Positions 26,408 through 40,344 of a DNA stretch of 64,000 nucleotides are shown one piece after another (the stretch's first letter is position 1; every line of letters begins with the position of its first letter). This DNA is from Bacteroidales bacterium (lineage in GTDB: Bacteria > Bacteroidota > Bacteroidia > Bacteroidales > FEN-979): positions 62,001-126,000 of the forward strand of contig JANXZO010000042.1 of the NCBI GenBank assembly GCA_025355465.1, written 5' to 3'. The position numbers were made by a program, and so were the translations under genes. The notes below the pieces were generated by a model, which was not told where the DNA came from, ran no database searches, and saw only the letters and a list, made by a program, of their open reading frames with translations.

Positions 26408-28006
26408 TTATTTTCCGACGGGTTGCCACCAGAGTTTGGTCGACATAGCATCTCCGCCAACTGCTGTAGCAGCTGCCTGAACATTGGCTGCATTAACTGT
26501 AAATTCCTGTTGGGGATAAGTCATCCTGTAAGGAATCGTGTTAATGGTAATCAACGGGGTGAACAGAATGTCGCTGCCATCTGATGCAACACTGGAGACT
26601 TCGCCTGGTTTAAGGAGGAAAGCCGGCTGACCGGTTCTGTTGTACTCAAACCATGCCTGGTAAGCCTGATTGAAGAAAGCCAGGTATTTCTGGGTCATGA
26701 CATTCTCCTTTGTAGCTGCAGGAAGAGCGGCCATGTAAACACCCATATCGGCATTATAAGTAGCGATAGCATCCGGAGTCCAACCTTCGAGCTGAATACA
26801 AACATCTCTCCAATGTTCCATGGATGCAGTGATACCTGCTTCATAATGCGACTGATCCCAGTTATTCAACTCCGAAAGCATGAATTCAACTTCTGCATAT
26901 TCCATATATACAGGAGCAAATGATGCATTCAGGATAACAGGGGCGTAGGTTGTTGTGTAAGCAGCGGGACCGTAGAAGCTCGGGCAGAGTTTCTTGCCCC
27001 AGTATTGCTGGGTGGCACCTTCGCTCATACCATAAGGCATACCAATATATTTGCCGCCTCTTGGTCTCGAATAGATACGTAAACGCGGGTCGGTAAGTCC
27101 TTTGAACGGGTTGACTTTTTTATTGAGCGTGTCATCAACACCTTTCAGCAGGTTAACCAGCGTTTTGCAGGTCGTAAAGTCATTCCGGGCGGAGGTCCAG
27201 AAAGCATCGTACAGCGGTGAGTTATTCGGCGTCTGGCCGATGTAGGGAAATTTAGCATTGTCGCCGTTGGAGGTCATGAATTCGACACCCTCTTCTCCGG
27301 CAATTGCATGGGCTGATGCATAGGCATCGGTACCTGACATACGCATGGCGATGCGGAGTCGAAGTGAGTTTCCGAATTTTTTCCACAATGACATGTCGCC
27401 ACCGAAAATAACGTCGCCGGAGTTAAAACCGCCATTGTCCACAACGATCGATTTTACTGCGGTGGTCAGTTCGTTCTGCAGTGCAGCATAGATAGTAGGA
27501 AGGTTGTCATATTTGGGAGTCGGAGTAACCGAACCTTTAAAGGCTTCCGAGTAAGGGATATTACCATACGTGTCGGCCATCATCTGCATTGCCCAAATTT
27601 TAAGGATGGTAGCACAGGCAATCTGGTTTGTGTTATCGCCACTTGCACCTGCCTTGGCTTTGGTATCGGCATTGGTGTTGAGATTAATGATCTCCTGCAG
27701 GTTCATCACATCATGATAGATCAACCTCCAATATTGGTTGTTGATGTTCTGACGGATCGCAAAGCGATCTTCTGAAGGGTAGTTACGCTGACACCAGTAT
27801 TGAGCATAAAGCATACTCTGGCGACCGCCCCACCATTCATCGTAGATGTCGTCGCAAAGGCCTTTCTGGGCCGCAGTGAAAATGGAGGCAGTTGTAACCT
27901 CTCCGGGGTTATTGGGATTCGTGTTTATCTTATCGAAGTTCTTGGTACACCCGATGATAAAGAGCACCAAAAATATCCCAAGGGTTAATTTTATAAATGT
28001 TTTCAT
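26408..28006 (-). CDS. SusD/RagB-family outer-membrane nutrient-binding lipoprotein
   Basis: 532 residues. Lipoprotein signal with FIIGCTKNFDKINTNPNNP (Cys about residue 20); the 'NTNPNNP' start is diagnostic of the SusD-like group that binds peptides or glycans. Helical TPR-like core (about 80-260), FGNSLRLRIAMRMS, and a late YMEYAEVEFMLSE helix follow. SusD proteins sit on the lid of the SusC barrel and capture ligand. It follows susC by 18 bases on the same strand. No glycosidase, peptidase, sulfatase or anti-sigma factor gene is adjacent, so the substrate is unknown; 'SusD-like 2' relatives are often linked to peptides. Confidence 0.92.
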   Translation of the reverse strand: MKTFIKLTLGIFLVLFIIGCTKNFDKINTNPNNPGEVTTASIFTAAQKGLCDDIYDEWWGGRQSMLYAQYWCQRNYPSEDRFAIRQNINNQYWRLIYHDVMNLQEIINLNTNADTKAKAGASGDNTNQIACATILKIWAMQMMADTYGNIPYSEAFKGSVTPTPKYDNLPTIYAALQNELTTAVKSIVVDNGGFNSGDVIFGGDMSLWKKFGNSLRLRIAMRMSGTDAYASAHAIAGEEGVEFMTSNGDNAKFPYIGQTPNNSPLYDAFWTSARNDFTTCKTLVNLLKGVDDTLNKKVNPFKGLTDPRLRIYSRPRGGKYIGMPYGMSEGATQQYWGKKLCPSFYGPAAYTTTYAPVILNASFAPVYMEYAEVEFMLSELNNWDQSHYEAGITASMEHWRDVCIQLEGWTPDAIATYNADMGVYMAALPAATKENVMTQKYLAFFNQAYQAWFEYNRTGQPAFLLKPGEVSSVASDGSDILFTPLITINTIPYRMTYPQQEFTVNAANVQAAATAVGGDAMSTKLWWQPVGK

Positions 28007-28024
28007 GGTTTGTTCCTCTCAAGA

Positions 28025-31000
28025 TTAAAAGTTAAAGCCTACGTTGAAACCGAAAGTCCTGGTTGACGGCAGTCCTGCACCTTCAATACCCTGGATGTTT
28101 CCGGAGCTGTTACTCTGTTCAGGATCGATACCGACCATGGCAGTTCCGAAAGTAGCAAGGTTTCTTCCGAAGAGACCAATTTTCAGGTTCTGGATCGGAC
28201 CGGTGAGTTTGCTGGGAATGGTATAGGAGACGGTGATTTCGCGCAGCTTGATATAGTTTGCGCTGAGTACGTTCTGCATGGCAGGTCCGTTGTAATGGTC
28301 GGTGGTCCAGGTATAGGCACCGATGTTCGTGGTGTTCGGTCCGGTAACCTGAGCAGTACCATCAGCATTATACATTACGTTACCGCTTGGATCGTATTTG
28401 GCAACCATAGCATCGATTACAATACCGTTTTCACGGATTCCGTTTTCAGCAGATGCTGCAAGGATACCAGTATAGGTTCCCCACATTTTGGTTGTGGAGA
28501 AGAACTTTCCACCCTGTTGGATGTCGACCAGCACGCGAACATCAAATCCAAAAATTTTGAATTCGTTACCGATACCAAGGTTGAAATCGGGAAGCACTGA
28601 ACCCAGCGCTTTCACGGCAGATTTCAGATAGCGGCCATTGGCGCCAACTACTTTGTTTCCGCTTGCATCATAAACATAATCGGTTCCCATTAACTGTCCG
28701 TATTCCTGACCGACAGCAGCATTAACCGAGATGTTGAAGGGGCCTACGCCCAACTGCAGGTTATCGATTCCGGGAGCAAGGGAGACAACCTTATTCCTGT
28801 TACGTGAATAGTTAGCAGTGATGGTCCACTCAAAAGCGTTTTTTACGCGAACGGGAACAGCGGTAAGGAAAATTTCAACACCCTTGTTGGTGATCTCGCC
28901 GGCGTTGATAACCTGGAATGAGTAACCGGAAGCACCGGAAACAGCTACAGGAATGATCTGGTTATTGGAAATTTTGCTGTAGTAAGTAAAATCAAGACCA
29001 AGTCTGTTATCAAGGAACCTTAACTCGGCACCAAGTTCCCAGGAGCTGGTCATTTCAGGTTTCAGATTAGCATTGTTGAGCGTGGTAGGAAGTGTGTAGA
29101 GACCGTAAGGGGGGAAATGATAAGGATACCCGTTCGGATCGAGGAAGTTGGAATAGGTGATGGCGGTGCGGTAAGGATCGGTATCGTTACCAACTTTTGC
29201 CCAGCCGCCTCTTACTTTGGCAAAGGTCAACCATTTGGCCTTTTTGATGGCAGGAAGTTCCGAAACTACCCAGCTGAGTGATACGGAGGGATAGAGGTAG
29301 GAATTTTTTCCGGCAGGAAGGGTAGATGACCAGTCATTACGTAAGGTAAGGTCAAGGTACAACATGCTTTTCCATCCCAGTGAAGCGCTTCCGTAAAGGC
29401 TGTTGATGCGTTTCCAGGTTTTGAAATCTGTGGCAACGTTGGTGAGGGAGTTGCTTAAGGTATAGAGTTCAGGAATCAGCAAGCCGCCAATGGTTGAGCC
29501 GGCGTTGAGTTTATAGTTGCGATCCATCATGTTACCACCGAAGTTGGCATTTAAACGCCAGTCTTTGGCAAATGTTTTATCAACGAGGAAGAGGAATTCG
29601 GCGTTCAACTCGGAGTTGGTACGAACCTGCTCGCGATAATAGGACTGGGAAGCGGAGAAGATCGCTACACGCTCCTGTGTACGGAAAGTGTAGTTGTCGA
29701 GGTTTACTTTACCCTGGGCGCGGAGCCAGCTGGTGATCTGCCAGGAAAGTCCTACGTTACCATAATAACGGTCACGTTTATCGTTCTGGTAGTTCATGTT
29801 ACGGTCCCAGTAAGGGTTGTTGGAGTAGGCAGGAGTAGGATCGTCCATTGAAGTACGGTTCCAGGAGCGCTGTGTTCCATCCGGATTGATATAATTGTTC
29901 TTCTGAACAACCATGTCGAGCTGACGCTGACCCCACTGGTTAAAACGTTCAACCGGGTTGATGTCGCCATAACCTGTTTCGGCACGGCCTTTCGTTTTGG
30001 TTGAAATATAGTTTACATCAGCAAATGCCTTTAAGGTTGAAGTAAGGTTGGCATTGGCACTGAGGTTTACCGTATAACGGTCGAGGGTTGAGTTTGGCAT
30101 GTAGCCTGTTGAATTATAGGTTCCGAGGGCAAGACGTACCTGGGCATTGTTTCCACCGCCGGTGAAGGCAATGTTGTTTGTCCAGCCAAGACCTGTCTTG
30201 AAGAATGTTTTAACATCATTTGTCGGGGCTTTCCATTCGATGGATTTGCCATAGTTTTCAGTATCCCATTTGTCGAAGCTGTTCCAGGGACGATAATAGA
30301 TGGGTGAATTTGCATAGGGTGTGCCGGCAAGGTCGATACCATATCCTTCAAGATATTTTCCTGAGGTGGTGGCATAAGCAGGGCCGAAACTTTCGTCAAT
30401 GCCATAGTCCATACCAAGGTCGAAAGAGGAATATGGATTTCCATCGGGGTCGGTACCAGGAACTTTATAGTATCCCTGCTGGGCACTGTTGGGTGCATAA
30501 TATTTCACTTCCCAGGTAGCATCAAGGCCACCGTTACCACCGCCATAGGTTGTCTGATATTTAGGCAGGTAGGCAACCTGTTCAAAGCTCAAACCGGTGT
30601 TGAATTCAATGCCGATTGTCTTGCCTTTTTGCTGGGCACCTTTTTTGGTTGTGATAAGGATAACCCCGTTTGCTGCGCGTGATCCGTAAAGAGCGGCGGC
30701 GTTGGCACCTTTCAGTACGGAGATTGTAGCAATGTCATCGGGGTTGATATCCTGTGCCATGTTACCGTAGTCAAACCCACCAGCACCACGAGCCGTGTTG
30801 TTCGTGTTAAAGTCACTGTTGTCGAGGATGGTACCATCGATCACGAACAGTGGCTGGTTGTTGCCGGATATTGAGTTGATGCCGCGGATGAGAATACGGG
30901 AGGAACCACCCATGTTACCGGTGGCGGAGGTAACCTGAACACCGGCTATCCTACCTGAAAGTGAATTGATCACGTTGGCCGAGCCGTCGTTTTGCAGTGC

Positions 31001-31387
31001 ACCTCCCTTAACATCCTGTACGGAATAACCGAGAGCTTTCTTTTCGCGGGTTACCCCAAGTGCCGTAACTACGACACCTTCCAGTTCCTGTACGCTGGGT
31101 TCAAGAACTACATTCACAACATTGTCAGTTCCCAGGGTGATTTCCTGGGTTTTCATCCCCACATAGGATACCAGAACGATCGTCTTGTCATTGGGGACCA
31201 CCAGGGTGAAGTTCCCATTTACATCGGTGATTGCACCGATAGCGGTACCCTTAACCAGAATGGTGGCACCGGGAATTCCAGCACCATCTTCAGTACTTGT
31301 TACCTTGCCCGAGATGGATCTTTGGGCATGGGCAACTTGCAACCCTATGAATAACATAAGGAATAGTGAAATTGTAAACTTTCTCAT
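28025..31387 (-). CDS. SusC/RagA-family TonB-linked outer-membrane transporter
   Basis: 1120 residues. Signal peptide (1-21, ending AHAQ), CarboxypepD_reg-like domain (about 24-105: ISGKVTSTEDGAGIPGATIL, GAITDVNGNFTLVVP), then the SusC-specific linker ALGVTREKKALGYSVQDVKG, plug (about 125-245 with RILIRGINSISGNNQPLFVI and the family's LKGANAAALYGSRAANGVIL), and a large barrel ending in FNVGFNF. It imports an unknown ligand with the adjacent SusD-like lipoprotein. No N-terminal anti-sigma interaction domain, so regulation by an ECF pair is not indicated. Confidence 0.95.
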   Translation of the reverse strand: MRKFTISLFLMLFIGLQVAHAQRSISGKVTSTEDGAGIPGATILVKGTAIGAITDVNGNFTLVVPNDKTIVLVSYVGMKTQEITLGTDNVVNVVLEPSVQELEGVVVTALGVTREKKALGYSVQDVKGGALQNDGSANVINSLSGRIAGVQVTSATGNMGGSSRILIRGINSISGNNQPLFVIDGTILDNSDFNTNNTARGAGGFDYGNMAQDINPDDIATISVLKGANAAALYGSRAANGVILITTKKGAQQKGKTIGIEFNTGLSFEQVAYLPKYQTTYGGGNGGLDATWEVKYYAPNSAQQGYYKVPGTDPDGNPYSSFDLGMDYGIDESFGPAYATTSGKYLEGYGIDLAGTPYANSPIYYRPWNSFDKWDTENYGKSIEWKAPTNDVKTFFKTGLGWTNNIAFTGGGNNAQVRLALGTYNSTGYMPNSTLDRYTVNLSANANLTSTLKAFADVNYISTKTKGRAETGYGDINPVERFNQWGQRQLDMVVQKNNYINPDGTQRSWNRTSMDDPTPAYSNNPYWDRNMNYQNDKRDRYYGNVGLSWQITSWLRAQGKVNLDNYTFRTQERVAIFSASQSYYREQVRTNSELNAEFLFLVDKTFAKDWRLNANFGGNMMDRNYKLNAGSTIGGLLIPELYTLSNSLTNVATDFKTWKRINSLYGSASLGWKSMLYLDLTLRNDWSSTLPAGKNSYLYPSVSLSWVVSELPAIKKAKWLTFAKVRGGWAKVGNDTDPYRTAITYSNFLDPNGYPYHFPPYGLYTLPTTLNNANLKPEMTSSWELGAELRFLDNRLGLDFTYYSKISNNQIIPVAVSGASGYSFQVINAGEITNKGVEIFLTAVPVRVKNAFEWTITANYSRNRNKVVSLAPGIDNLQLGVGPFNISVNAAVGQEYGQLMGTDYVYDASGNKVVGANGRYLKSAVKALGSVLPDFNLGIGNEFKIFGFDVRVLVDIQQGGKFFSTTKMWGTYTGILAASAENGIRENGIVIDAMVAKYDPSGNVMYNADGTAQVTGPNTTNIGAYTWTTDHYNGPAMQNVLSANYIKLREITVSYTIPSKLTGPIQNLKIGLFGRNLATFGTAMVGIDPEQSNSSGNIQGIEGAGLPSTRTFGFNVGFNF

Positions 31388-31709
31388 TGCAGTTGGTTTT
31401 TGTTAGTAAAAATGTTTATTATCAGTGACATGGTTAATAAATTCAAATCAGATAGAAATAATTGGTCTGTCGAAAGCGATTACATAATGCAATTTTAGTA
31501 ATTACTTTTATGATTACCTACAATAATTTAACAAAAAATTGACGATTCTTTAACATTCAATTAACAATCACGAATTTGCAAATTTCAAAAAAGTTGATTT
31601 ACAGGCCTTAATTTTTGATCCGGGAATTCATCCAAAATTTGTGAAATTATTCACGAATAATCCTTGTTTTCGATTTTTTTGTTAATTTTGGTAGGAACCT
31701 CAACTTTTC
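31388..31709. other. 322-bp AT-rich intergenic region between divergent operons
   Basis: No coding frame with support. It separates susC (minus) from the deaminase/RND run (plus). Contents: a perfect 12-base palindrome AATTTGCAAATT at 31573-31584; an inverted repeat GTGAA-N4-TTCAC at 31641-31654; and TAATTTTG (31683-31690), listed separately. No convincing TAnnTTTG element was found for susC. The palindromes are candidate operators but AT-rich DNA makes short palindromes common by chance. Confidence 0.5.
31683..31690 (+). promoter_or_regulatory. Bacteroidetes-type -7 element for the deaminase/RND run
   Basis: TAATTTTG, 19 bases before the ATG at 31710. A TTG at 31664-31666 gives a 16-base spacing, shorter than the usual 19-21. 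Confidence 0.5.
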
Positions 31710-31952
31710 ATGCCCATGAAAGCAATAACGCTACTAACTTGTTTTATCGCGGTTATTTTTCTGACAATTCATGCGGAGGCGCAGGAAAAACCTGTCGCCA
31801 ATAATGAAATCAGGTTAGGATACGGTGTGCTCACCGGCCCTGAGATGGTTAATTTATTCGGGATCAGGATCGGCAAAGAGATCGGGGCATTTATGGAGTG
31901 GGGATTTGGATTCAGAGGAATGGTGAATGTAGGAATTTCCGGTAAGTTTTAA
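31710..31952 (+). CDS. Very short envelope protein with barrel-strand-like C-terminus
   Basis: 80 residues (ATG at 31710; a second ATG at 31716 is equally good). Seen: a signal peptide to about residue 25 (IFLTIHAEAQ), then NEIRLGYGVLTGPEMVNLFG, an amphipathic opening like that of Bacteroidota outer-membrane beta-barrel proteins, and an ending FRGMVNVGISGKF that looks like a terminal barrel strand with C-terminal Phe. Only two or three strands remain between, so it is either a genuine mini-protein or an internally deleted barrel gene. Its stop is 2 bases before the deaminase start, making it the first gene of the run. Function unknown. Confidence 0.6.
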   Translation: MPMKAITLLTCFIAVIFLTIHAEAQEKPVANNEIRLGYGVLTGPEMVNLFGIRIGKEIGAFMEWGFGFRGMVNVGISGKF

Positions 31953-31954
31953 CG

Positions 31955-32914
31955 ATGTCCTTACCAATCACCCTCGCAGCAATCCGGGCATGGCCCAAAA
32001 GCGATCTTCACAACCATTGCATGCTTGGGGGAAAACGATCAGTCATAGAAAAATTTTACGGCAGAAAATTCGGCAGGTTCAAGGCTTTAAAGCCCGGGAT
32101 TGCCGATCTGAATCAATATATTATCAGAGAGGTGCGTCCTTTCTTCGAAATGCCTGGTGGTTTTGAAAAGGGTGTGGAGGCTGCCTTCCTGCAAGCCCGG
32201 AAGGACGGGGTCGTGAAGTTGGAAATGAGCATTGATGTCTCGTTCGGGACATTGTTTAAAATTTCACCCGGCCATATCGTTTCAACCCTTAATCATTTTC
32301 ATACATTGATCGCTCCCACAATTGATTTCAGGCCTGAGCTGGGTTTTGCACGACCGGTTCCGCTTCGTACGCTGCTTGCTCGTTTCGAACCATACCTTGG
32401 GTTTGACTATTTCAGGTCGATCGACCTTTACGATGATGAAGGAGCCCAGCCACTGAAAAATTTCCGGGAATTGTACAGCATTGCCCGCCAGTTGGGGATG
32501 AAATGTAAAGCCCATGCCGGGGAGTTCGGATCGGCGGAGTCGGTAAGGGAAACAGTGGAGGTTTTGGAGTTGGATGCGGTTCAGCACGGAATCGGTGCAG
32601 CGGAATCCCCGGCGGTCATGAACTGGCTGGCCGACCGTGCAATACCTTTGAATGTATGTCCGGCCAGTAACATCCAACTGAAACGTGTAATATCCTATAA
32701 AACCCATCCGATCCGGATTTTATTCGATCATGGTGTAAAAGTTACCGTGAATACGGATGATGCCCTGATTTTCGGAGCAGGAGTGTCGGAACAACTCTTC
32801 AAATTATTTCAATCAGGTCTGTTTTCCAAGGCAGAACTGGATATTATCCGGAGGAACGGCCTCGAAAACCCTGTATCCGGAGCAATCCCGGTACCCGATA
32901 ACAAAAACAGGTGA
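31955..32914 (+). CDS. Adenosine deaminase-family metal-dependent hydrolase
   Basis: 319 residues, no signal peptide, so cytoplasmic. It belongs to the zinc-dependent adenosine/AMP deaminase family. Seen: zinc ligands H19 and H21 in KSDLHNHCMLGG, KAHAGEFGSAESV (about 185-197, His ligand and catalytic Glu), VQHGIG (about 210), CPASNIQL and VNTDDALIFG (about 265-275, zinc Asp plus the neighbouring Asp). NTDD followed by a hydrophobic loop is as in true adenosine deaminases. Possible substrates include adenosine, deoxyadenosine, adenine or 6-aminodeoxyfutalosine; sequence alone does not decide. Tightly spaced (2 bases either side) inside a run with an RND pump and a BMP-family lipoprotein. Confidence 0.85.
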   Translation: MSLPITLAAIRAWPKSDLHNHCMLGGKRSVIEKFYGRKFGRFKALKPGIADLNQYIIREVRPFFEMPGGFEKGVEAAFLQARKDGVVKLEMSIDVSFGTLFKISPGHIVSTLNHFHTLIAPTIDFRPELGFARPVPLRTLLARFEPYLGFDYFRSIDLYDDEGAQPLKNFRELYSIARQLGMKCKAHAGEFGSAESVRETVEVLELDAVQHGIGAAESPAVMNWLADRAIPLNVCPASNIQLKRVISYKTHPIRILFDHGVKVTVNTDDALIFGAGVSEQLFKLFQSGLFSKAELDIIRRNGLENPVSGAIPVPDNKNR

Positions 32915-32915
32915 A

Positions 32916-33971
32916 ATGAAACAACGAATCATCTTTCTGATCTGTGCTTTACTGGTAGTCTTTCTGGTCGTCATGAAAATATTCATTTTTCGCGGCACCC
33001 GGGAGATCACCACCCTTACAACAGGGAGCCCGGTTGTGCCGGTAGAGTGTTTCGTGGCCAGGGATACGACGGTAGATTACCAGCTTGAAACCGTCGGAAC
33101 GCTGCGCGCCAATGAGCAGGTTGAGATCGTGAGCGAAATAAGCCGGAAGATCGTTGCCATTTTAATGAAGGAGGGAACCCTGGTAACGAAAGGACAGCTC
33201 CTTTTTAAACTCGATGATGCCGATATTGTGGCCAGGATTAACAAACTCTCCCTTGAAGTAAAACTTGCGCAGGACAACGAAGCCAGGGAAAAGGTGCTTT
33301 ATTCCAAAGGAGGGATAAGTAAAGAGCGGTTTGAGGAGGTGTCGAACCACCGTCAGGTCTTACAGGCCGAAATTGAAATCCTCCGGGTGGATCTGTCGAA
33401 AACGGCGATATGTGCGCCATTTTCCGGAAAAATCGGTTTGCGGAATGTAAGTGAAGGCACCCTTGTCAGTCCGGGCATCGTACTGGCCAACTTGCAGGAC
33501 CTGAGCCGGATGAAGGTAGATTTTGCGATTCCAGAGCGCTATGCCTGCGACCTGAAGGCCAGATCACGGATCACCTTCCGTACAGATAATCTCACTACGG
33601 ACCAGTCGGCGGTTGTTGAAGGGATTGAACCTTCAGTGAATATTAAGACCCGGACGTTGCTGATCAGGGCAATTGCTCAAAATAATGATGGCAGGCTGGT
33701 TGCCGGATCATCAGCACATGTTTTTCTGACCCTTCGCGAACTTACCGGAAGCATTTTTATACCCACCAGCGCACTCATTCCCTCCATCAGAGGCTACACC
33801 GTATTTTTCTGTCGCAGCGGTGTTGCCGTGCCGTCCATGGTCAAAACGGGTGTCAGGAACCGCGACTTTATCCAGATCACCGAGGGTGTCCGGCAGGGAG
33901 ATACCCTGATTGCAACAAACCTGCTGCGGGTTAAAAAGGATTCTCCGCTAAAGGTGGTAAAAACATATTAA
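32916..33971 (+). CDS. RND efflux periplasmic adaptor (membrane fusion protein)
   Basis: 351 residues. A signal anchor (about 5-25) without lipobox Cys, then the barrel-sandwich half motif VGTLRANEQVEIVSEISRKI, KEGTLVTKGQLLFKLDDADI, a shortish alpha-hairpin (about 105-155), and its return ICAPFSGKIGLRNVSEGTLV, beta-barrel and membrane-proximal domains ending GVRQGDTLIATNLLRVKKDS. It bridges the inner-membrane pump and TolC. It begins 1 base after the deaminase stop and 1 base before the pump gene, so the tripartite system and the deaminase are one transcription unit by spacing. Confidence 0.93.
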   Translation: MKQRIIFLICALLVVFLVVMKIFIFRGTREITTLTTGSPVVPVECFVARDTTVDYQLETVGTLRANEQVEIVSEISRKIVAILMKEGTLVTKGQLLFKLDDADIVARINKLSLEVKLAQDNEAREKVLYSKGGISKERFEEVSNHRQVLQAEIEILRVDLSKTAICAPFSGKIGLRNVSEGTLVSPGIVLANLQDLSRMKVDFAIPERYACDLKARSRITFRTDNLTTDQSAVVEGIEPSVNIKTRTLLIRAIAQNNDGRLVAGSSAHVFLTLRELTGSIFIPTSALIPSIRGYTVFFCRSGVAVPSMVKTGVRNRDFIQITEGVRQGDTLIATNLLRVKKDSPLKVVKTY

Positions 33972-33972
33972 C

Positions 33973-36900
33973 ATGAGTCTCTCCTCCCTGAGTATAAAAA
34001 AGCCGGTTCTGGCCATGGTTTTTACCCTGATGATCCTCATTTTGGGAGGTGTTGCCTTCGTGTATCTGGGCATCAGGGAGTACCCCGAGATGGATCCTCC
34101 GGTTGTGACGGTAACCACCACCTATTCCGGTGCCAACCCGGAGATCATCCAGGCCCAGATTACGGAACCGCTGGAGGACGCGATCAATGGAATAGAAGGG
34201 ATTCGTGTGTTATCGTCGGTTTCTACGGACCAATCAAGTCTGATCACTGTCGAATTCAATCTTGGGAAGGAGATGGAATCGGCTGCCAACGATGTGCGCG
34301 ACAGGGTTTCAAAGGCCATTAAACTATTGCCCAAAGATGTTGATCCGCCGATTGTTGAAAAGCTTAGTGCAAATGCGAATGCCATCATCTTCATGATTGT
34401 GCGAAGTTACGAACGGAACATCATGGAGGTAAACGATCTTGTAGAAAACACAATAAAGACGCGGCTACAAACCATCCAGGGCGTAGGCGACATCAAGATC
34501 TTCGGGGAAAAAAAGTATTCCATGCGGTTATGGCTCGATCCTTACAAAATGGCCTCCAACGGGATAACCGCTGTGGACATTGAAAGGGCCGTGAACCGCG
34601 AAAATGTCGAACTCCCATCGGGCCGTGTTGAGGGTGACCTCACAGAACTTACGATACGGACCCTGGGATTGTTGCAAACCCCGGAACAATTCAACAACCT
34701 TATCATTAAACAGGAGGCAGGAAATATCATACGGCTTTCGGATATCGGCACTGCCGAGCTATATCCCGAGAATGACAGGTCGACCGTGCTGATGGAGCTG
34801 CTGCCGGTCATCATTATCGGTGTCGTTCCGCAAACAGGTGCCAACAATGTGGCCATCGCCGACGAATTCTACAAGCGGATGGAGAGCCTGAAAAAGGAGA
34901 TCCCGGCGGATTATGATGTGAAGATCGGCTACGACTTCACGAAATTTGAGCGGGAGGCTGTAAAAGAGGTGCAGCAAACCATCCTTGTCTCGCTGATCCT
35001 GGTGGTGCTTATCATTTTTCTCTTTCTCCGGGATTGGCGTTCCACGATCATCCCGGTAGCGGCCATACCCGTATCCATCATCGGATCCTTCGTCATTATG
35101 GCGGTGATGGGGTTGTCGATCAATGTTCTGACGCTGCTGGCCATCGTTCTGGCCATCGGGCTGGTATGCGATGATGCCATTGTGGTGCTCGAAAATATTT
35201 ATACCAAGATCGACACCGGCATGCATCCTGTTGAAGCTGCCTTGAAGGGGATGAAGGAAATATTCTTTGCCGTTGTCTCAACCACCATCACACTGGCCGC
35301 TGTGTTTCTCCCTGTCATGTTCCTGCAGGGGCTGGTGGGCAGGTTGTTCAAGGAATTTGCCATCGTGGTAGCGGGTTCCGTGTTAATCTCTGCCTTTGTG
35401 GCGCTCACCCTGTCGCCCATGATGTGTTCACGCATCCTGAAAAATCAACGGCATCTGAACGCAAACTGGCTGATCAATAAAACGGAGCCGTTTTTTCTGG
35501 CGCTGAACAGGGGATACCGCTACTCCCTCAAAGCCTTCATGGACCGGCGGTGGCTGGTTTTTCCTGTCTTCATGGTATTGATTGTTTCAATAGGATGGTT
35601 ATTCAGGTCATTGCATTCGGAACTGGCACCTTTTGAAGACCGTTCGAACATCCGTATTCCGACACTGGCACCGGAGGGATCTACCTATGAATTTATGACA
35701 GGCTACATGGCCCGGCTCGATAAATATATTGCAGATTCCTTCCCCGAGGCCAGTGTGTCGTTTTCGTGGATTTCGCCAAGCCTGGGCACCATTGAAAATC
35801 CGAATAAGGCACAACAGATCGTTTACTTTGTAGATCCGGGCAAGCGAACAAGGAGTCAGCACGAAATGTTCAAAAAGATGTCGGGCGACCTTCAGAATAT
35901 TACCGGTATACGCACTTTCCCTTTTGAACCGCCTACGATCGGCGATCGTTTTTCGGGTCAACCGGTTCAATATGTCTTGCTCGCACCCAGTCTGAACGAT
36001 CTAAACAAAGTCTTGCCAAAGTTCCTGGAGGAGGCCCGGAAGATCCCTGCGCTGCAATTCGTGGATGCCAATTTCAAAGTAAATAAGCCGGAACTGCGAA
36101 TTACGATCGACCGCGAAAAAGCATCTCAACTTGGGGTTTCCACTGCAGAAATTGCCCGAACGATGCAACTTGCGTTGAGTGGGCAGCGATACGGTTATTT
36201 TATCATGGACGGATTACAGTACGAGATCATCGGGCAGGTTTCACGCGCCGACCGCGACCGGCCCGATGACCTTAAGGCCTTGTATGTACGCAATGACAAA
36301 AACGAACTTATTGCCCTCGACAACCTTATCACAACTACCGAATCGATCAACCCGGCCTCGATTTTTTCGTTCAACCGTTACATTGCTGCAACGGTTTCGG
36401 CCGGACTTGCGCCTGGATCTGCCCTGGGTGACGGGATCGCAGCACTTGACGACGTTTCGAAAAAGGTATTGCCGGATACTTTCAACACGGCGCTGGCAGG
36501 CCAGTCGCGCGATTACCGCGAGAGTTCTTCCAGTCTTATCTTTGTGTTCCTGCTCACCATCGTATTAATTTACCTGATTCTTGCTGCGCAATTCGAGAGT
36601 TTTATCGATCCCCTGATCATTCTTTTTACGGTACCTTTAGCCATTGCGGGCGCACTTTTTTCACTGTGGTATTTTAACCAGACCTTCAATATTTTCAGCG
36701 AGATCGGGATTATCATGCTGATCGGCCTGGTTACCAAGAACGGGATCCTTATCGTGGAATTTGCCAATCAGCGCAAGGCTTCGGGGATCGATAAAATGGA
36801 GGCTGTTCAACGGGCTGCCATTTCACGTCTCCGCCCGATCCTTATGACCTCTTGCGCCATGATCCTGGGAATCCTGCCCATCGCGCTGAAACTGGGCGCC

Positions 36901-37086
36901 TCGGCAGAGAGCAGGCAGTCGCTGGGTATTGCTGTGGTAGGTGGATTGATCTTCTCTACCTTTCTTACCCTTTATATTATCCCGGCAATTTATTCTTATC
37001 TCTCCTCAAATCCGCGAACTGAGAAAATTGATTATACCGAGATGACCGTGGAAAAGAGATCCATCATGACCGACGATATAAGTTGA
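33973..37086 (+). CDS. RND-family inner-membrane efflux pump (AcrB/HAE1 type)
   Basis: 1037 residues, the full length of the HAE1 subgroup. Twelve membrane helices with two large periplasmic loops. Seen: MVFTLMILILGGVAFVYLGI (TM1), YPEMDPPVVTVTTTYSGANP, the proton-relay double Asp in TM4 (IGLVCDDAIVVLENIY, about 395-410), GLSINVLTLLAIVLA, and in TM10 the partner Lys in GLVTKNGILIVEFANQR. It exports small molecules from periplasm or membrane using proton motive force. The heavy-metal subgroup (CusA) motifs are not seen. Substrate unknown; the flanking deaminase and BMP-type lipoprotein suggest nucleoside-like compounds as one hypothesis. Confidence 0.95.
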   Translation: MSLSSLSIKKPVLAMVFTLMILILGGVAFVYLGIREYPEMDPPVVTVTTTYSGANPEIIQAQITEPLEDAINGIEGIRVLSSVSTDQSSLITVEFNLGKEMESAANDVRDRVSKAIKLLPKDVDPPIVEKLSANANAIIFMIVRSYERNIMEVNDLVENTIKTRLQTIQGVGDIKIFGEKKYSMRLWLDPYKMASNGITAVDIERAVNRENVELPSGRVEGDLTELTIRTLGLLQTPEQFNNLIIKQEAGNIIRLSDIGTAELYPENDRSTVLMELLPVIIIGVVPQTGANNVAIADEFYKRMESLKKEIPADYDVKIGYDFTKFEREAVKEVQQTILVSLILVVLIIFLFLRDWRSTIIPVAAIPVSIIGSFVIMAVMGLSINVLTLLAIVLAIGLVCDDAIVVLENIYTKIDTGMHPVEAALKGMKEIFFAVVSTTITLAAVFLPVMFLQGLVGRLFKEFAIVVAGSVLISAFVALTLSPMMCSRILKNQRHLNANWLINKTEPFFLALNRGYRYSLKAFMDRRWLVFPVFMVLIVSIGWLFRSLHSELAPFEDRSNIRIPTLAPEGSTYEFMTGYMARLDKYIADSFPEASVSFSWISPSLGTIENPNKAQQIVYFVDPGKRTRSQHEMFKKMSGDLQNITGIRTFPFEPPTIGDRFSGQPVQYVLLAPSLNDLNKVLPKFLEEARKIPALQFVDANFKVNKPELRITIDREKASQLGVSTAEIARTMQLALSGQRYGYFIMDGLQYEIIGQVSRADRDRPDDLKALYVRNDKNELIALDNLITTTESINPASIFSFNRYIAATVSAGLAPGSALGDGIAALDDVSKKVLPDTFNTALAGQSRDYRESSSSLIFVFLLTIVLIYLILAAQFESFIDPLIILFTVPLAIAGALFSLWYFNQTFNIFSEIGIIMLIGLVTKNGILIVEFANQRKASGIDKMEAVQRAAISRLRPILMTSCAMILGILPIALKLGASAESRQSLGIAVVGGLIFSTFLTLYIIPAIYSYLSSNPRTEKIDYTEMTVEKRSIMTDDIS

Positions 37087-38390
37087 TGAAAAAGACCATG
37101 ATCACCGGCTTAATACTGTTGCTGTTTGCAGGCAGGCTCCTTGCACAAACGATATTATCACTGGAAGATGCTGTATCTACGGGACTTTCCAATAACTATG
37201 GCATTGTGATCGCGAAAAACCAGGTACGGACAGCCCAAAACAATGCCACACCCGGAAACGCAGGAATGCTTCCTTCCTTAAATCTGATTGCCTCCTATGT
37301 CAAAGGCTGGAGTGATGCAAAGGTGAAGGTCCTTGCGGGTTCCGAGCTGGATGCGCCGAATGCCCAGAGTGATCTGTTGAACGCCGGAATAGGTCTGAAT
37401 TGGACCATCTTCGACGGCATGAAAATGTTTATCACCTGGGATAAGCTCAAGAAACTTGAGGAGATCAGTGAGCTCAGCGCAAAGATCACCATGGAAAATA
37501 CGATGGCGAAGATCATCGGGAGTTACTACGATATTATCAGACAGGTTCGGGTTCGTGCAATCCTTATTGAGCAGGTAGATATCTCAAAGTTCCGGCGCGA
37601 ACTTGCCCGGATGCGTTTTGAGACCGGCACCGGTTCTGAGATGGAGTACCTGAAGGCAAAAGTTGAGTTGAATGCAGATGTGGCGGCTTTATCGAACCAG
37701 CAAACCGTTTATGAAAATTCCAAAACCACGCTAAACGACCTGTTGGCGAGGGATGTAAACACCCCGTTTGAGGTGCGTGATACGATCGTAATAAACCTAA
37801 TGCCAGACTATGATAGTCTCCGGCGTTCCATGAGATCGGCCAACCGGAATCTGGTCCTGGCTGCAAGGAACAAACAGGTAGGACAGTTGTCGGTACAATC
37901 GGCCAGGGCTGATCAATGGCCCACACTGGGTGTTTATGCCAACTATAACTACCTCCTTTCCGAGACCGGCGCCAATTTTGTTCAGTACAACCGGAATTTT
38001 GGTCCCTCGGTAGGGGTACAGCTGAACATGAAACTTTTCGATGGGCTTAATCTCCGAAGGCAGTATAAAAATGCAGGCATCACACTGGAAAATGATGAAT
38101 TTGAGATCAGGCAGCTGGAGAACAGACTTGAAGCCTACCTGGCACGTATCTACAATGATTACCGAAATCAGTTGGAGATGATCGGGTTTGAGCAGGAGAA
38201 TCTGCTGATGGCCCAGCGAAACATGGACATTGCCGAGGAGAGTTATAAGATCGGGGCGATCTCCTCCCTGCAGCTGCGCGAAGTCCAGCATGACCTTCTT
38301 GATGCCGGCACGCGCATGGTAACTGCCGAATTCAGGACCAAGCTCACGGAGACCGAACTCCTGTTGTTAAGCGGCAAACTTATTCAATAA
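37086..38390 (+). CDS. TolC-family outer-membrane efflux channel
   Basis: 434 residues from the ATG at 37086, which overlaps the TGA of the pump gene by one base. Signal peptide to about residue 21 (LLLFAGRLLAQ). Two repeats of the OEP family with long helices: ILSLEDAVSTGLSNNYGIVIAKNQVRTA-like opening, MLPSLNLIASYVKGW, ARMRFETGTGSEMEYLKAK, and in the second repeat WPTLGVYANYNY and AEESYKIGAISSLQLREVQ. It forms the outer-membrane duct of the tripartite pump. Confidence 0.93.
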   Translation: MKKTMITGLILLLFAGRLLAQTILSLEDAVSTGLSNNYGIVIAKNQVRTAQNNATPGNAGMLPSLNLIASYVKGWSDAKVKVLAGSELDAPNAQSDLLNAGIGLNWTIFDGMKMFITWDKLKKLEEISELSAKITMENTMAKIIGSYYDIIRQVRVRAILIEQVDISKFRRELARMRFETGTGSEMEYLKAKVELNADVAALSNQQTVYENSKTTLNDLLARDVNTPFEVRDTIVINLMPDYDSLRRSMRSANRNLVLAARNKQVGQLSVQSARADQWPTLGVYANYNYLLSETGANFVQYNRNFGPSVGVQLNMKLFDGLNLRRQYKNAGITLENDEFEIRQLENRLEAYLARIYNDYRNQLEMIGFEQENLLMAQRNMDIAEESYKIGAISSLQLREVQHDLLDAGTRMVTAEFRTKLTETELLLLSGKLIQ

Positions 38391-38415
38391 AACCAATGAA
38401 AATAACTCCTCACGT

Positions 38416-39453
38416 ATGAACAAACTACCGGTTGCAACTTTGTGTTTACTACTGATCTCATTAACCCTGTTCACATCATGCCTGAAAAAGTCGGATCCTG
38501 ATCCCTTGCCTGTATTCAAAATTGGATTTGTAAGCGGGCTCGGCGGACTTTCCGACCGCGGTTTCAACCAGAATATTCTGACCGGAGTTCAGCAGGCGGC
38601 AAACGATTTTCCGGTGTACTGCGAGGTCTATGAAATCAGCACGGTGCTCGATATTCCGAAGGGGATTGAATATTTCCGGTCAAGGGGTATCAATCTGATC
38701 ATCACGGCTGGTTTTGATGCATCTCAGGCAACCATCGCAGCGGCTACGGCGAATCCTTCCCTTGATTTCCTGATCCTGGACTGCGCGATAGCAAACCCGC
38801 CGGCAAACATGCTTTGCGCCGTTTTCGACGTGGATCAGAGTTCATTCCCCTGCGGGTTCCTTGCAGCTTACTGGGCTTCCGGGCAGAATCAAGTGAATCC
38901 GGTGACCGGCTTTGTGGCAGGTCCGGAAATTACGGAGATCCGGCAGTTTTCAGTAAGCTATGCGCATGGGGTGGAATATTTCAATACGAAATATAATCAG
39001 CATGTACGGTCATCGGGCTATTTCGCTACCTCCTTCAATGATACCATGCAGGGGGCAAAACTTGCCGACTCGCTGTTACAGCAGCACGCCTCCGTCATCT
39101 TTGCATTTGCCGGCAGAACAGGAAATGGTGCGCTTTACAAGGCAAAAGAAGCCGGAAAATGGGCCATCGGCGTGGACGTGGATCAGTTTATCTCCATCCC
39201 CCAGGTTGGTTCTGCATTGCTCACCTCCTGCATAAAAGAGCTGGATGTGGTGGTATACGGCGTGATCGGGGAGTATTCGACCGGCTATTTCGGGGGTGGC
39301 AGGATCATCCATGGAAATCTTGAAAACGGAGGTGTCGGCATGGCCCCGTTTCATGATTTCGAAACCAGTATTCCCGACAGCATCAAGATGGCGCTTGAAA
39401 ACATAAAAACCGGAATAAAAACCGGAACCATCAAGACCGGCTGGCCTGAATAG
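38416..39453 (+). CDS. BMP/PnrA-family substrate-binding lipoprotein
   Basis: 345 residues. Lipoprotein signal with LFTSCLKKSDPDP (Cys about residue 21). Periplasmic-binding-protein fold of the basic membrane protein (BMP) family: FKIGFVSGLGGLSDRGFNQ opening, ITAGFDASQATIAAA, GFVAGPEITEIRQF, and GKWAIGVDVDQ. PnrA/TmpC relatives with known ligand bind purine nucleosides as parts of ABC importers. Here there is no ABC permease or ATPase nearby; instead it is 25 bases after the TolC gene, the last member of the deaminase/RND run. The DRGFNQ and GVDVDQ residues correspond to nucleoside-contacting segments in that family. Whether it binds nucleoside is inference. Confidence 0.85.
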   Translation: MNKLPVATLCLLLISLTLFTSCLKKSDPDPLPVFKIGFVSGLGGLSDRGFNQNILTGVQQAANDFPVYCEVYEISTVLDIPKGIEYFRSRGINLIITAGFDASQATIAAATANPSLDFLILDCAIANPPANMLCAVFDVDQSSFPCGFLAAYWASGQNQVNPVTGFVAGPEITEIRQFSVSYAHGVEYFNTKYNQHVRSSGYFATSFNDTMQGAKLADSLLQQHASVIFAFAGRTGNGALYKAKEAGKWAIGVDVDQFISIPQVGSALLTSCIKELDVVVYGVIGEYSTGYFGGGRIIHGNLENGGVGMAPFHDFETSIPDSIKMALENIKTGIKTGTIKTGWPE

Positions 39454-39467
39454 CAGGTCTTCTCCTC

Positions 39468-39893
39468 CTATCTAAGTCTCCTGTAATAGACACCAAACAA
39501 GATCACAAGCAGTATATATACCGCCGTGGTGGATATTGCCGCATTAGGCTGCTTGAGGTAAAATGTAGCAAGAGCCACGCAGGAGAATGCCATGATGTAA
39601 TATCCCGTGCGGCGAAGTTTCCAGATCAGCACAGTTCCTGAAAATGCGAGGGCGTTCAGTACAGAGCCGGCCAGAAACAGCAGGAGGATCCGGGATGGCG
39701 TATAATGGTCCTCCGGTATATATATGTTCAGCACATGGGTGATTCGGCCGGAATAAAAGGTTGCAAGGAGGAAAAGGATCGAGAGGAAGCCGAAATTGAC
39801 CATGGCAAAAAGACAAAGTGCCGAAAGCAGGAAAGGCCGGGAAACCGGGTTCTTCTTTGTCCCGAACTCAATGGGATTGATCTCTTCCGTCAT
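39468..39893 (-). CDS. Four-helix membrane protein, unknown function
   Basis: 141 residues. N-terminal cytoplasmic stretch (about 1-20), then four hydrophobic segments (about 22-48, 68-92, 95-110, 116-135), with WKLRRTGYYIMAF between the second and third. No recognised family beyond general small membrane proteins of Bacteroidota. It directly follows, on the same strand, a similar gene (39895-40344) with RLKKAGFHVYTI at the equivalent position; the two look like diverged tandem duplicates. The stop lies 14 bases from the convergent BMP lipoprotein stop. Confidence 0.7.
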   Translation of the reverse strand: MTEEINPIEFGTKKNPVSRPFLLSALCLFAMVNFGFLSILFLLATFYSGRITHVLNIYIPEDHYTPSRILLLFLAGSVLNALAFSGTVLIWKLRRTGYYIMAFSCVALATFYLKQPNAAISTTAVYILLVILFGVYYRRLR

Positions 39894-39894
39894 C

Positions 39895-40344
39895 TCAGTG
39901 CATGAATTTTAGTTGGGTACTATACAAAATGATGAACGTTCCGGAGAATAGGATGTCGAGAAAATTAGGACCGGGCAGATGCATAAAATACATCGGTGAG
40001 ATGACAAGCAGTATCTGGAAGATGGTATACACATGAAAACCTGCCTTTTTTAACCGCATCATCAGGACTGCCCCGATGATGGAGCCGACATAAAAAACCC
40101 CGGAAAGAAAGAAAAATAGCGGTTTTGCCTCAAGAATCGCATCCACGCCGGGGATATTAAACTTATCGGCAAACTCCTTGATTACGATCACAAAAATGTC
40201 GTAGAAAGCGGCAAACATCCAGCTTGAAACAAGGTTCAGTCCGCTCCCGACAAAGGTGAGAATACAAAGTACCGTGAGCAGGGTTTGCCGTTTTTCGGGC
40301 AATTGTGGGTCTGTAAGCGGGGGCGTGCTATTCAACTCTTCCAT
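39895..40344 (-). CDS. Four-helix membrane protein, tandem relative of the next gene
   Basis: 149 residues. Opens with a Pro-rich cytoplasmic tail (TPPLTDPQLPEKRQ), then four hydrophobic segments, the third following a short amphipathic part (FADKFNIPGVD). Helix spacing and the MRLKKAGFHVY motif match the neighbouring gene at 39468-39893; the two genes are one base apart. Function unknown. They lie downstream of the histidine ammonia-lyase gene on the same strand, 67 bases after its stop, and might be in its transcript. Confidence 0.7.
   Translation of the reverse strand: MEELNSTPPLTDPQLPEKRQTLLTVLCILTFVGSGLNLVSSWMFAAFYDIFVIVIKEFADKFNIPGVDAILEAKPLFFFLSGVFYVGSIIGAVLMMRLKKAGFHVYTIFQILLVISPMYFMHLPGPNFLDILFSGTFIILYSTQLKFMH

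Follow-up and report, generated by a model that had tools for sequence, protein, structure and literature searches.

A six-gene run in a freshwater Bacteroidales bacterium as the probable distal half of a PrsW/ECF-sigma-linked RND envelope operon

The 64,000-nucleotide stretch of DNA analyzed here (the window) comes from contig C50 of genome G000, a 3.54-Mb assembly (98.8% complete) of a freshwater Bacteroidales bacterium. As a first-pass annotation had described, it holds six tightly packed plus-strand open reading frames, at positions 31710 to 39453, separated by gaps of 2, 1, 1, -1, and 25 bases. The locus is a resistance-nodulation-division (RND) efflux operon of a known type with a new accompaniment of genes. 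The best explanation of the whole, to which we give a probability of about 60%, is that the run represents the distal half of an envelope operon linked to PrsW and an extracytoplasmic function (ECF) sigma factor and furnished with binding lipoproteins, in which the deaminase would be a passenger. The first-pass annotation had instead suggested a nucleoside-linked system for export, or for sensing or removal of a nucleoside-type toxin. The PrsW/ECF-sigma module, the companion of the pump, lies outside the window and was not visible to that annotation.

The gene order was compared across 37 genomes of the family of G000 together with G740 and G628 from other families; the named relatives are metagenome-assembled, uncultured Bacteroidales, with lakes as the source of many according to their isolate names. 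The pump stands beside the deaminase in seven family genomes, G000 included, and among the six others one shows the linkage across a contig break and one is ended by a contig end inside the RND gene. Because adaptor, RND, and TolC genes recur beside the deaminase in these six genomes, the run is more than chance, and the neighborhood is conserved beyond the strain of the window, a point on which the first-pass proposal depended. The order deaminase-adaptor-RND-TolC-BMP (basic membrane protein) is found in three of the six. Several relatives carry PrsW, an ECF sigma factor, and an anti-sigma factor between the M19 dipeptidase and the deaminase, and G028 has the series PdxJ-M19-PrsW-sigma-anti-sigma-X408-Y1000-deaminase-adaptor-RND-TolC-BMP on one strand, with gaps from PdxJ to BMP of 3, 16, 55, -29, 20, 35, 3, 5, -4, -1, and 39 bases. 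A single-Cache lipoprotein gene lies between deaminase and adaptor in G013 and G061. In G033, sp200 (a secreted outer-membrane-like protein of about 200 amino acids), deaminase, and Cache genes occupy one contig end and BMP-TolC-RND-adaptor another, and G063 has kept deaminase and BMP with the pump gone and an apparent deletion scar.

The same operon is present in another family, in G740, as PrsW-sigma-anti-sigma-four X408-Y1000-Cache lipoprotein-adaptor-RND-TolC with no deaminase between, at identities of 72% (Y1000), 68% (sCache), 61% (adaptor), 82% (RND), and 61% (TolC); its BMP gene precedes PrsW by about 6 kb, in the same orientation. In G628, of a third family, PrsW follows BMP after 40 bases, near a contig end. 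As G740 has the same order without the deaminase, the deaminase does not belong to the core, and the simplest reading of these sequences is that pump operon and sigma module would form the older unit, with the deaminase inside it in this family only. The arrangement in relatives would then be PrsW-ECF sigma-anti-sigma-X408-Y1000-(sp200)-[deaminase]-(Cache lipoprotein)-adaptor-RND-TolC-(BMP). PrsW, sigma, and anti-sigma genes are contiguous with the pump in G028, G013, and G740, and not in G000. The deaminase-linked adaptors form one clade (98/97) and the linked deaminases are scattered in their tree, which fits a single linkage event followed by several pump losses. The X408 protein has a transmembrane anchor and the motif GTFGKAEKY and matches no Pfam or NCBIfam family; its four tandem copies in G740 lie between the anti-sigma gene and Y1000 (L277:10333-15555).

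In G000, the pump block has been relocated. At the ancestral site (L129, G000:C50:20000-38000), PdxJ-M19-PrsW-sigma-anti-sigma stand directly against the ABC1021 gene; the deaminase-pump-BMP block is missing there, and the window, about 65 kb off, holds it as sp80-deaminase-adaptor-RND-TolC-BMP, with an upstream region of its own. In G025, a block with full sp200 is likewise away from M19. Because neither the adaptor tree nor the deaminase tree pairs G000 with G025 (moderate support), two separate moves of the block are likely; alternatively, a single move may have been followed by a later transfer. There is little sign that a mobile element carried out the relocation: the block has no flanking repeats of note, and no transposase was recognized by eye among the neighboring open reading frames. 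The anti-sigma gene at the old site (L129:10460-11170; G000:C50:30459-31169) has lost 31 amino acids in frame from its N-terminal region, so the control half of the operon may be decaying in G000. In relatives, this N-terminal region gives a weak zf-HC2 anti-sigma-type match.

A Pfam scan of the run placed A_deaminase, the HlyD-type adaptor, ACR_tran, OEP, and Bmp all above their curated cut-offs. The second gene (31955..32914, plus strand) encodes a putative cytoplasmic deaminase of the amidohydrolase fold (PF00962/cog1816 type), from a Bacteroidales subfamily with the motif HNHxxLGG. Its zinc and catalytic residues (H19, H21, H187, E190, H211, D268, and D269) are invariant in an alignment of 38 relatives, in agreement with the full zinc site reported earlier. 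Of the first-pass label "adenosine deaminase-like," fold and zinc site stand; the ribose-binding Asp is replaced by M23 in an alignment to Plasmodium adenosine deaminase (ADA), with L or another residue in relatives, and every adenosine deaminase equivalog cut-off was missed (best 310 versus 510 for NF006856; 127.6 versus 216.6 for TIGR01430). For this comparison, we take D19 of mouse ADA to be the Asp that contacts the ribose 5'-OH. The equivalent of Gly184 is mostly Asp within this family and mostly Gly in others. An AlphaFold model (pLDDT, 94.6) finds the adenine deaminases 3ou8 and 3rys first, and adenosine deaminases match almost equally well (TM scores of 0.81 to 0.83), so that a putative adenine deaminase is structurally as close as an adenosine deaminase; assignment as an adenosine deaminase proper was not accepted in view of the missed cut-offs and the replaced Asp.

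The distribution of the enzyme points away from the pump. It is nearly full length in 34 of the 37 family genomes, mostly without a linked pump, and its commonest setting is downstream of pdxJ and the M19 dipeptidase gene with no pump. Members of the subfamily at 36 to 45% identity in other Bacteroidales families have gltX-, purQ-, or folB-like neighbors, and in the ten loci read there, none adjoins an RND pump of this type. With the deaminase mostly unlinked in its own family and a deaminase-free pump operon in another, the deaminase cannot count as a conserved partner of the pump. By eye, the subfamily directly precedes a purQ-like gene at L236, L237, and L238, in one Bacteroidales family.

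The pump itself appears complete. The adaptor, or membrane fusion protein (32916..33971, plus strand), exceeds the cut-offs of PF16576 and TIGR01730, and the HAE1-type permease (33973..37086, plus strand), one of several RND permeases in G000, matches PF00873 over its full length (954 bits versus a cut-off of 28, residues 4 to 1009). The proton-relay motifs are intact, with GLVCDDAIVV at 396, KNGI at 922, and RLRPILMTS at 952; the relay residues of AcrB-type pumps are DD in transmembrane helix 4, K in helix 10, and R/T in helix 11. The TolC-type outer membrane channel (37086..38390, plus strand; PF02321, 135.7 bits) starts with ATG, a TTG at 37083 also being possible. Adaptor and channel are thus encoded beside the permease, in an order kept in relatives.

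The last gene (38416..39453, plus strand) encodes an orphan lipoprotein of the BMP/PnrA type (PF02608, 138.5 bits versus a cut-off of 24.1), whose lipobox Cys22 is invariant in an alignment of 14 sequences. The nucleoside pocket of BmpA consists of D24, F27, D98, F151, F176, V224, D225, and K242 (PMC13325309). Mapped through the alignment, with the chain numbering offset by 6, all eight positions are kept in the window protein as D47, F50, D122, F178, F207, V253, D254, and K274, and all are invariant among the 14 relatives; the nucleoside-contacting residues, whose loss would have spoken against the first-pass idea, are present. A model of the protein (pLDDT, 92.8) has PnrA with inosine (2fqw) as its top fold match (TM score, 0.79). 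The complete pocket together with this match makes nucleoside binding by the window BMP plausible, and the pocket is the one feature of the locus that points to nucleosides. Within the order, BMPs of the window type stand alone with varied neighbors in many genomes. In distant Bacteroidota, stand-alone BMP genes lie directly downstream of a NuoJ-like gene, repeatedly across genomes (L221, L223, and L224, by eye). At L225:6971-8993 and L220, BMP genes lie near thymidine kinase- and/or cytidine deaminase-like genes (by eye). The nucleoside gene context is clear at these last two loci, and the window BMP is without such context.

It is conceivable that this BMP is an ordinary ATP-binding cassette (ABC) substrate-binding protein served by a permease and ATPase encoded elsewhere, as the well-characterized relatives of PnrA count as ABC components and BMP genes of distant Bacteroidota are directly followed by ATPase and permease genes (L216 to L218 and L220). 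We regard this as very improbable. The first-pass remark that no ABC genes are present extends to the whole genome, as no BMP-type ABC system was found in G000 or adjacent to the BMP gene, and its sole BPD_transp_2 protein is an unrelated permease of 947 amino acids that carries ABC_sub_bind domains of its own as a fusion. Moreover, BMP-bearing G009, G014, and G031 give no BPD_transp_2 match, and the ABC-linked BMPs of distant Bacteroidota form a separate clade (support, 100/100). The fused protein, with two ABC_sub_bind stretches, is encoded at L259:5069-7912 (G000:C50:53068-55911) beside a 270-amino-acid ATPase-like protein.

Two further explanations concern the run as a whole. A dedicated system against nucleosides or nucleoside antibiotics, with the BMP capturing the compound in the envelope, the RND pump exporting it, and the deaminase inactivating the cytoplasmic share, would accommodate the complete pocket and the PnrA-inosine fold, the contiguity of deaminase, pump, and BMP in G000, G025, and G028 (and in G033 across the contig break), the presence of the six-gene block away from its old site in both G000 and G025, and a weak tendency of pump and BMP to co-occur within the family (Fisher P = 0.025, in a test that ignores shared ancestry). 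What survives of the nucleoside-linked proposal is the pocket and the conserved neighborhood; it is weakened by the deaminase, which is no conserved partner and lacks the ribose-binding Asp, and by BMPs that often stand alone. An RND pump also draws its substrate from periplasm or membrane without needing a BMP. We consider this system unlikely. At the other extreme, a housekeeping deaminase could share one transcript by chance with a generic RND pump and an orphan binding lipoprotein, without a shared function. Each part does occur singly (the deaminase behind pdxJ-M19, the pump elsewhere in genus g8, the BMP in many families), and PurQ- and FolB-like neighbors in other families suggest a housekeeping deaminase, but such a loose operon would hardly be expected to keep its core order between families, to lie off the ancestral site as a six-gene block with the same end genes in two non-sister genomes, or to place BMP in the vicinity of PrsW once more, as in G628 and G740. 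This explanation, too, seems improbable to us.

In the preferred reading, an envelope signal would ancestrally have led to PrsW-type intramembrane proteolysis and release of the ECF sigma factor. The tripartite pump, driven by the proton gradient, would take up a harmful amphiphilic compound from the periplasm or the inner membrane and expel it through the outer membrane. The BMP lipoprotein could work independently of any ABC transporter, binding a nucleoside-like ligand in the envelope so as to scavenge or sense it, and the deaminase would be a cytoplasmic purine-type enzyme with a housekeeping role of its own, merely cotranscribed in this family. It could further be speculated, as a doubtful extension, that a pump under ECF-sigma/PrsW control uses the Cache and ABC-free BMP lipoproteins for sensing its ligand or passing it on, with the PnrA fold serving efflux or signaling and not uptake.

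Several observations weigh against the distal-half reading. That the released sigma factor would switch the operon on is suggested by gene order only, and the core order outside the family was seen in one genome, G740, in searches of limited extent. The BMP gene is absent from the deaminase-linked pump loci of G013 and G061, and in genus g8 the pump occupies another site, without PrsW or sigma genes and next to a lipoprotein gene of a different kind. The stretches of G000 that were examined yielded no X408, Y1000, or Cache lipoprotein, no genome-wide search having been made. All genomes compared are, or appear to be, metagenome assembled.

The first gene (sp80; 31710..31952, plus strand) had been taken for a mini envelope protein, which is ruled out by alignment with its counterparts in L055, L078, and L082. 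These have about 200 amino acids against 80 in sp80, which retains about 37 residues at the start, signal peptide included, and about 34 at the end, the middle (about 125 amino acids) being deleted in frame; tblastn with full sp200 aligns at its two ends only. The gene is what remains of sp200 after an internal deletion, and it matches no Pfam family. Just upstream of the run, a candidate -7-like box of the Bacteroidota type (TAATTTTG; 31683..31690, plus strand) weakly resembles the consensus, and its spacing to a -33 box is not ideal. Promoter and terminator scans gave nothing informative, the terminators falling below the shuffle level. On the minus strand, a SusC/SusD-like pair (window positions 26408-31387, by eye) is divergent from the run, and two adjacent small membrane-type proteins without a Pfam match (39468-40344) are convergent with the BMP gene.

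These results bear on how BMP/PnrA proteins are viewed. They have been described as ABC uptake components, and the Bacteroidales clade identified here combines a complete nucleoside pocket with no ABC transporter, some of its members being encoded together with RND pumps and close to PrsW/ECF-sigma genes. The role of an ABC-free, nucleoside-type binder in the envelope is a directly testable question. The locus also illustrates that gene order in a single genome can mislead, as the deaminase that hinted at a nucleoside pathway is probably a passenger and lies within the operon in just one family.

When placed beside known systems, the pump shares with HAE1 tripartite systems (AcrAB-TolC, MexAB-OprM, and MdtABC) the adaptor/permease/TolC operon, the full-length PF00873 match, and the DD/K/R relay. 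It differs in its accompaniment by a BMP lipoprotein and a deaminase, to which relatives add PrsW/ECF-sigma genes and a Cache lipoprotein, and its permease does not reach the cut-off of any NCBIfam RND permease model; in line with the earlier statement that no such RND system is described, no comparable combination of RND pump, BMP, and deaminase turned up in a search of the literature. As in SigW-RsiW-PrsW of Bacillus, a PrsW-family protease, a SigW/RpoE-like sigma factor, and an anti-sigma factor occur together in the relatives and at the old site of G000, whereas the PrsW-like protein here is far under the NCBIfam PrsW cut-off (24 versus 225 bits), an RND pump is linked, and gene order is what points to sigma control. 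Compared with cog1816 adenine and adenosine deaminases (PA0148, 3ou8; AAur1117, 3rys; and Plasmodium ADA), the window enzyme has the same TIM barrel and all zinc and catalytic residues at 22 to 25% identity, but HNHCMLGG in place of HxHLDG, by which the ribose-binding Asp is lost, and mostly Asp in its family at the Gly184 equivalent. Finally, the window BMP shares the PF02608 fold, lipobox, aromatic cradle, and ribose-contact residues with PnrA/TmpC of Treponema pallidum, BmpA and BmpD of Borrelia, and PnrA of S. pneumoniae, whereas Asp27/Ser28 of the TmpC specificity loop correspond to Gly41/Leu42 and the protein, without a cognate ABC transporter, sits after an RND operon.

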